Assembly (NCBI GenBank): GCA_021159365.1
Contig: JAGGRY010000052.1
Span: 1-46,523 of the forward strand
Reading direction: 5' to 3'
DNA length: 46,523 nucleotides
Origin: Nitrososphaerota archaeon
GTDB lineage: Archaea > Thermoproteota > Nitrososphaeria_A > Caldarchaeales > Wolframiiraptoraceae
A model generated the notes under the pieces. The model was not told the origin of the DNA and ran no database searches. It saw nothing but the letters and a program-made list of their open reading frames with translations. Of this stretch, positions 3,766 through 45,185 are shown one piece after another (positions within the stretch are counted from its first letter, which is position 1; every line of letters begins with the position of its first letter). A program made the position numbers and the translations under genes.

Positions 3766-4698
3766 TTGTCTCTAGAATATTATATCAAGAACATCTTCGG
3801 AAAACTCGATGAAGACCATTTCAAGGTGCTGAGGGCCATCGAGATGAATCTCCAGACGAGAGAAGTGGTCCCAGTAGAGATCATAGGGAGGATTACCGGA
3901 TTCGGATGGAGAGTTGAAAAACTATTGAAGAAGCTGCATGAATACAGGCTTATCTGGGCTCCCAGAGGGGTGACAAGAGGCTATGCATTAAATTATTATG
4001 GGATGGATTTACTCGCCCTAAAATCGCTGGTCGATAGAAACGTGATCGCGAGCTTCGGCAAGCCTCTTGGAGTTGGAAAAGAAGCAGATGTCTATGATGC
4101 ACTTTCACCGGATGGCATGAGATTGGCCGTGAAGTTCTTTAGAATAGGGAGGACGAGCTTCAGGGGATATGAGAAGCATAGAACAGCTCTAATGACGGCC
4201 CACACTTACATGCTCGCATCGATAAGGGCTGCTGCCAGAGAATATCAGGCTTTAAAGATCCTCCATCCGAAGGGCGTCGCCGTCCCAAAGCCGATTGCGA
4301 GGAATAGACATGTAATCGTGACCGAGGTATTCTATGGGATAGAGATTTCATCAACCTCATATATCGAGAATCCTGTTGAGGTGTTATGCGAGATAATTAA
4401 GAATCTAAAATTGGCCTATGACGCGGGAGTGGTTCACAGCGATCTAAGCGTGTATAACATCTTGATGACGCCTGAGCAGAAGATCTTGATAATAGATTGG
4501 CCTCAATGGGTTGATCCAAAACATCCGATGGCTCAAAGATACATGATTAGAGATATGAGGAATCTTTTGAAGTTCTTTAGGAGAAAGTGGAATGTCTTGG
4601 AATTACCTATGGAATGTCAGAGGCTTATTAAGGATCTTTGCGGAGAAACATTTAATACCTTAGTAGGTGAATCTAGATCGAAAGGGATGAGTGGATGA
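3766..4698 (+). CDS. rio2: RIO2-type serine/threonine protein kinase (ORF track start 3715; in-frame TTG at 3766 just after ileS stop is more likely)
   Basis: N-terminal winged helix plus GKEADVYDA, VHSDLSVYNIL, IIDWPQ kinase motifs. Confidence 0.92.
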   Translation: MSLEYYIKNIFGKLDEDHFKVLRAIEMNLQTREVVPVEIIGRITGFGWRVEKLLKKLHEYRLIWAPRGVTRGYALNYYGMDLLALKSLVDRNVIASFGKPLGVGKEADVYDALSPDGMRLAVKFFRIGRTSFRGYEKHRTALMTAHTYMLASIRAAAREYQALKILHPKGVAVPKPIARNRHVIVTEVFYGIEISSTSYIENPVEVLCEIIKNLKLAYDAGVVHSDLSVYNILMTPEQKILIIDWPQWVDPKHPMAQRYMIRDMRNLLKFFRRKWNVLELPMECQRLIKDLCGETFNTLVGESRSKGMSG

Positions 4699-11060: not shown

Positions 11061-11278
11061 ACTCTGTAAGTGAAGGAAATTTATGAAGTCATGGATTCCG
11101 AACTTCATAAGATTACGACTATAAGCGACATAGGCGTCCTAATACTTCCGATGAGGATTATTTGGAGAGTTGCAGGGCTGAAAGCCGAGATACGCAGAGG
11201 AATTGGAGTGACGTTTCTGCGGAGCTCTAGATCGCTCAAGTATAGACTTAATAAGTATAGGAAATGTGATGGTTTATG

Positions 11279-11327
11279 GTGATGAGTGCGGGTATTTCTG
11301 AGCCGTGATGAATGATACCCGAACTGA
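11279..11327 (+). ncRNA. C/D-box guide sRNA (2'-O-methylation guide)
   Basis: C GTGATGA 11279-11285; 12-nt guide GTGCGGGTATTT; D' CTGA 11298-11301; GCC spacer; C' GTGATGA 11305-11311; 12-nt guide ATGATACCCGAA; D CTGA 11324-11327. Confidence 0.88.
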
Positions 11328-45078: not shown

Positions 45079-45185
45079 TGCCGGGGGCGGGATTCGAACC
45101 CGCGACTTCGGGGATGCACCCTCCGACCAGATTCTCCATCGAGGATTATGAGCCCCGCACTCTAACCAGGCTGAGTTACCCCGGC
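45079..45185 (-). tRNA. tRNA-Met (CAT), probably elongator, with ~32-nt anticodon-loop intron
   Basis: Exons fold as GCCGGGG...CGGGG-CTCATAA-CCCCG...GCGGGTTCGAATCCCGC-CCCCGGC-A; ~32 extra nt after the anticodon. Confidence 0.92.

Follow-up and report, generated by a model that had tools for sequence, protein, structure and literature searches.

The C/D box sRNAs Tte sR114, Iho sR21, Pca sR28 and Sac sR115 have been presented as a set directed at helix 18 of the 16S rRNA (Dennis et al., 2015, Figure 3b; PMC4644070). The D′ guides of the set target A512, which is A535 in E. coli, and the D guides of three members target G491 (PMC4644070). The E. coli position printed for G491 is G515 (PMC4644070), while the paper's own offset of 23 (A512/A535, G507/G530) puts it at 514, in agreement with the count used here. 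A common ancestor and convergence were both considered possible for the set (Dennis et al., 2015; PMC4644070). In N. equitans, the two guides of sR17 and of sR15 address opposite strands of one 16S helix, the D guide binding the 3′ strand (PMC4644070, Table 3; PMC7994747). Both have been proposed to act as RNA chaperones (PMC4644070; reviewed in PMC7994747), and chaperone ideas have been put forward for sRNAs that address opposing helix strands (PMC7994747). Helix 18 is a methylation hotspot, and rapid evolution has been ascribed to archaeal C/D guides (PMC7994747).

The window analysed here, the whole stretch of 46.5 kb, constitutes a single contig in a draft genome of 1.25 Mb from the order Caldarchaeales. 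It carries an sRNA gene with the same D′ target, D target and guide order as the sR114/sR21/sR28/sR115 set, as compared by published targets, and the gene product is on this comparison a further member of a known but little-studied sRNA set. It differs from that set, which comes from other Thermoproteota lineages, in that its helix and guides have the GC version of the helix pair 513:538. It shares with sR17 and sR15 of N. equitans the placement of two guides on opposite strands of one 16S helix. Unlike it, the N. equitans sRNAs address helices 28 and 30, whose strands lie far apart in sequence, and have the opposite guide order. The dual-guide sRNA of this hot-spring archaeon very probably directs the methylation of A535 and G514 by fibrillarin, one nucleotide on each strand of helix 18.

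Anatomy and surroundings of the gene

The element occupies positions 11279-11327 of the forward strand and is, on direct reading, a complete dual-guide C/D box sRNA. Box C (GTGATGA, 11279-11285) is followed by the D′ guide GTGCGGGTATTT (11286-11297), box D′ (CTGA, 11298-11301), a D′-C′ spacer of 3 nt (GCC, 11302-11304), box C′ (GTGATGA, 11305-11311), the D guide ATGATACCCGAA (11312-11323) and box D (CTGA, 11324-11327). All four boxes are conserved in the alignment of homologues. The preliminary description, which had named textbook boxes, two 12-nt guides and a 3-nt spacer, was accurate in these points. It had also noted that CGGGTAT in the D′ guide and ATACCCG in the D guide are exact reverse complements, and this is confirmed in the sequence. 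Most archaeal guide pairs are directed at strands that are not complementary, and the guides themselves consequently lack mutual complementarity.

A regular expression for the order C-D′-C′-D, applied to both strands of the window (46.5 kb), matched once, at 11279-11327, and had no match in 60 windows simulated with an order-2 Markov model. The anatomy of the sRNA is complete and lies far above chance. It corresponds to that of other archaeal dual-guide C/D box sRNAs in the C/D′/C′/D arrangement, the guide length of about 12 nt and the predicted particle with fibrillarin, Nop5 and L7Ae. Genes for fibrillarin (3.5e-95) and a Nop5/Nop-domain protein (6.1e-71) lie near each other on contig 13 of the same genome. 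A scan of the window at the Rfam gathering threshold yielded three tRNAs only, and the sRNA was not among the matches. One of the Rfam tRNA matches (45079-45185, reverse strand, 107 bases) is absent from the ARAGORN output and is probably an intron-containing tRNA.

Both flanking genes lie on the strand of the sRNA. Upstream, an adenosine-specific kinase (PF04008, 10563-11060, Pfam 5.4e-75) is located, which is also adjacent in several relatives. The downstream neighbour is an IMP dehydrogenase (PF00478, 11375-12445, Pfam 5e-129), which adjoins the sRNA at 8 of the 27 loci compared within the order. A further C-box-like motif, GTGATGG, is present at 11266-11272, 13 nt upstream of box C; a sister genome (L007) has GTGATGA at this position.

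Target sites in the 16S rRNA

The organism's own 16S rRNA contains GGGCAAGACGGGTGTCAGCCGCCGCGGTAATACCCGCTCCCC, the sequence of helix 18 (530 stem-loop) in the decoding centre. Folding of this segment paired CGGGUGU with AUACCCG, and the two strands of the helix occur in the 16S rRNA as TAATACCCGCTC and GACGGGTGTCAG. E. coli positions are taken to be those obtained by counting from the 515F primer site. The D′ guide matches AAUACCCGCUC on the 3′ strand (532-542) with one mismatch, a T facing U541, which is absent from most relatives. The D guide matches CGGGUGUCA on the 5′ strand (512-520) over nine base pairs including one G-U pair at G517. The fifth base of each guide forms a Watson-Crick pair with the nucleotide predicted to be 2′-O-methylated, A535 for the D′ guide and G514 for the D guide.

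The search covered the 16S rRNA on two contigs, which lack its central part owing to an intron or contig break, as well as the 23S rRNA and tRNA loci. Helix 18 was the best site of the D guide in 16S and 23S rRNA. For the D′ guide of the window it was tied for the best rRNA site; for the consensus D′ guide of the order it was the best. The competing site lies in the 23S rRNA (position 1837, introns included) and scored equally with the window's guide. It was discarded on account of a lower score with the D′ guide of relatives and of a G-U pair at the methylated position. Targets in tRNAs were likewise rejected, none of the 33 tRNA predictions (the best 30 of 44 tRNA loci) being better than helix 18. 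Shuffled guide pairs matched as well within 60 nt in 28 of 1000 cases for the window's own guides and in 1 of 1000 when the consensus D′ guide of the order was used. The match in one genome alone is thus suggestive and of modest significance, and the relatives decide.

The preliminary description had proposed that the guides could address the two strands of a single helix, with a methylated A and a methylated G opposite the fifth guide bases, and had called for a search of 16S, 23S and tRNAs. Both targets were located in the 16S rRNA, where they form the one helix 18, with A535 and G514 as the predicted nucleotides; as set out below, the guides also follow this helix through evolution. The exact target strings it had predicted do not occur in the 16S rRNA, the real sites differing at the ends of the guides and by one G-U pair.

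Open reading frames with LAGLIDADG_3 domains, all on the minus strand (L037:50-679; L036:1482-1907, 2231-2848 and 3779-4492), interrupt the 16S and 23S rRNA genes of this genome. The interruptions are probably rRNA introns with homing endonucleases.

Distribution, ancestry and covariation with helix 18

In a DNA search, most of the 40 relatives retrieved had the element, whereas its flanks had diverged. The same locus is present in Candidatus Wolframiiraptor, Candidatus Calditenuaceae, Candidatus Caldarchaeum and other Aigarchaeota. With a covariance model derived from 28 sequences, and with matches accepted to an E value of 0.1, it was recovered in 216 of 398 Thermoproteota genomes. This wide distribution favours common descent with the published set, as far as sequence comparison can tell.

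Alternatively, unrelated sRNAs of different lineages may have acquired both helix-18 guides independently, the hairpin being a methylation hotspot; convergence was held possible by Dennis et al. (2015; PMC4644070). Such a convergent origin seems unlikely here, although the genomic neighbours differ from family to family and sequence similarity between clades is not evident outside the boxes and guides. The guide order is always the same, with the D′ guide on the 3′ strand and the D guide on the 5′ strand; the forward pattern was found in 30 genomes of 22 genera. An order-reversed pattern of near-equal stringency had no match in any of the 398 genomes. At one position the reversed pattern accepted G or T where the forward pattern required T; being looser there, the comparison works, if anything, against the forward count. 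Moreover, the adenosine kinase neighbour is common to two families of the order (f1 and f4), in inverted orientation. The fixed guide order thus favours a single origin for these sequences unless geometry forces it, and geometry seems not to forbid the reversed order, since sR17 and sR15 of N. equitans have the opposite order on other helices.

The comparison with the rRNA drew on 60 covariance-model matches from about 40 families and on 33 further helix-18 sequences. The alignment of homologues comprised 89 sequences, 28 from Caldarchaeales and 61 from other lineages. The helix was read directly where the 16S rRNA of a genome was found, and the remaining homologues were scored against the consensus of their clade. 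The helix pair 513:538 is GC in Caldarchaeales versus UA in the other Thermoproteota sampled. The corresponding guide sequences are CGGGTAT and ATACCCG in Caldarchaeales, and mostly CTGGTAT and AYACCAG in other lineages. At 513:538, the D′ and the D guide each fit the helix of their own clade in 28 of 28 Caldarchaeales and in 59 of 61 other sequences, one by wobble. Against the helix of the other clade, the D′ guide pairs in 0 of 89 cases and the D guide in 1 of 89, by wobble. These counts ignore kinship, and the covariation is essentially one deep double switch that was inherited many times. As read from the 89 aligned homologues, the switch of the helix pair is accompanied by a switch of both guides.

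A second position separates pairing with the rRNA from pairing between the guides. Among the non-Caldarchaeales, 48 of 61 D guides have a C opposite G517 and form a Watson-Crick pair with the rRNA. At the position facing G517, the two guides show an A-C mismatch in 47 of the 61. Pairing between the guides is broken where the D guide gains its Watson-Crick pair with G517, which argues for selection on pairing with the rRNA. The guides are nearly complementary to each other since their two target strands pair in one helix, and their mutual complementarity is, on this reading of the alignment, a by-product of copying both strands of helix 18.

This bears on the proposal that the complementarity of the guides is itself functional, forming a self-inhibited or switch-like RNA hairpin to which the rRNA match would be secondary. 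The preliminary description had mentioned pairing of the guides with each other, and it is physically possible: the RNA folds at -12.9 kcal/mol (37°C) with the guides paired. The pairing also holds in 98% of cells for the first 28 sequences, with a joint change from GC to UA. However, the joint change at 513:538 is accounted for by the rRNA helix, the z-score of the fold is only -1.73, and the mismatch in 47 of 61 sequences falls exactly where the D guide improves its fit to G517. The G517 position led to the rejection of the hairpin as the function, which is now highly improbable; the capacity to self-pair stands, but it is not what is selected. Equally improbable is a fossil locus whose boxes persist while the RNA is not made: a scan for sigma-70-type promoters, which does not cover archaeal ones, found nothing, but boxes and guides are retained while the flanks diverge in most genomes of the order, and in four species RNA-seq data sets had served to identify related sRNAs (PMC4644070).

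Several relatives depart from the common form. In genus g4 of the same family, the D′ guide is kept and an unrelated D guide of about TCCGNGCAGGAA is present in all six genomes (L215-L220); a convincing site for the latter was not found in the rRNA of the window's genome. Dual targeting is consequently not obligatory. The linker of g4 could form a GTTAC-GTAAC hairpin. In genus g5 the D′ guide reads GCGGGTAAAT, by which the pairs with 532-533 are lost and the pair at A535 is kept. The D′-C′ linker has expanded into a longer, hairpin-like stretch in several lineages, seemingly independently (L024:312-379 and L170; matches in G058, G217 and G232). One genome (G018) contains the sRNA in two near-identical copies on different contigs (L010/L077 and L071). 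In another (G015, L030), the D′ segment is apparently present twice (GCGGGTATGACTGACTTAGTATTTCTGA), and this copy may be aberrant or still evolving.

Predicted function and significance

The sRNA would be assembled into a particle with L7Ae, Nop5 and fibrillarin. Within this particle, helix 18 would be recognised on both strands, on the 3′ strand by the D′ guide and on the 5′ strand by the D guide. Fibrillarin would then place one 2′-O-methyl group on each strand of this decoding-centre hairpin, at A535 and at G514 (E. coli numbering). Both strands may be held before they anneal, and we infer from this a chaperone step in which the folding of helix 18 is delayed or ordered. The sequence evidence supports the guiding mechanism well; the chaperone role is an extrapolation from it.

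In a stronger version, the sRNA would be inherited vertically throughout the phylum and conserved chiefly for chaperoning the folding of the decoding-centre hairpin, and methylation would be a secondary mark. The sRNA would bind the two strands of helix 18 simultaneously, imitating each of them, and pass them to one another by strand exchange. This primacy of the chaperone role is doubtful; guided methylation of A535 and G514 is the preferred reading.

Given the rapid evolution assumed for archaeal C/D guides, a combination of two guides that is kept across Thermoproteota and changes together with its helix is unusual. The finding bears on the question raised in 2015, whether the helix-18 sRNAs share a common ancestor or arose by convergence. 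Genus g4 represents a natural experiment, in which the D guide alone was lost. In cultured Sulfolobales, the chaperone idea for sRNAs on opposing strands becomes testable.
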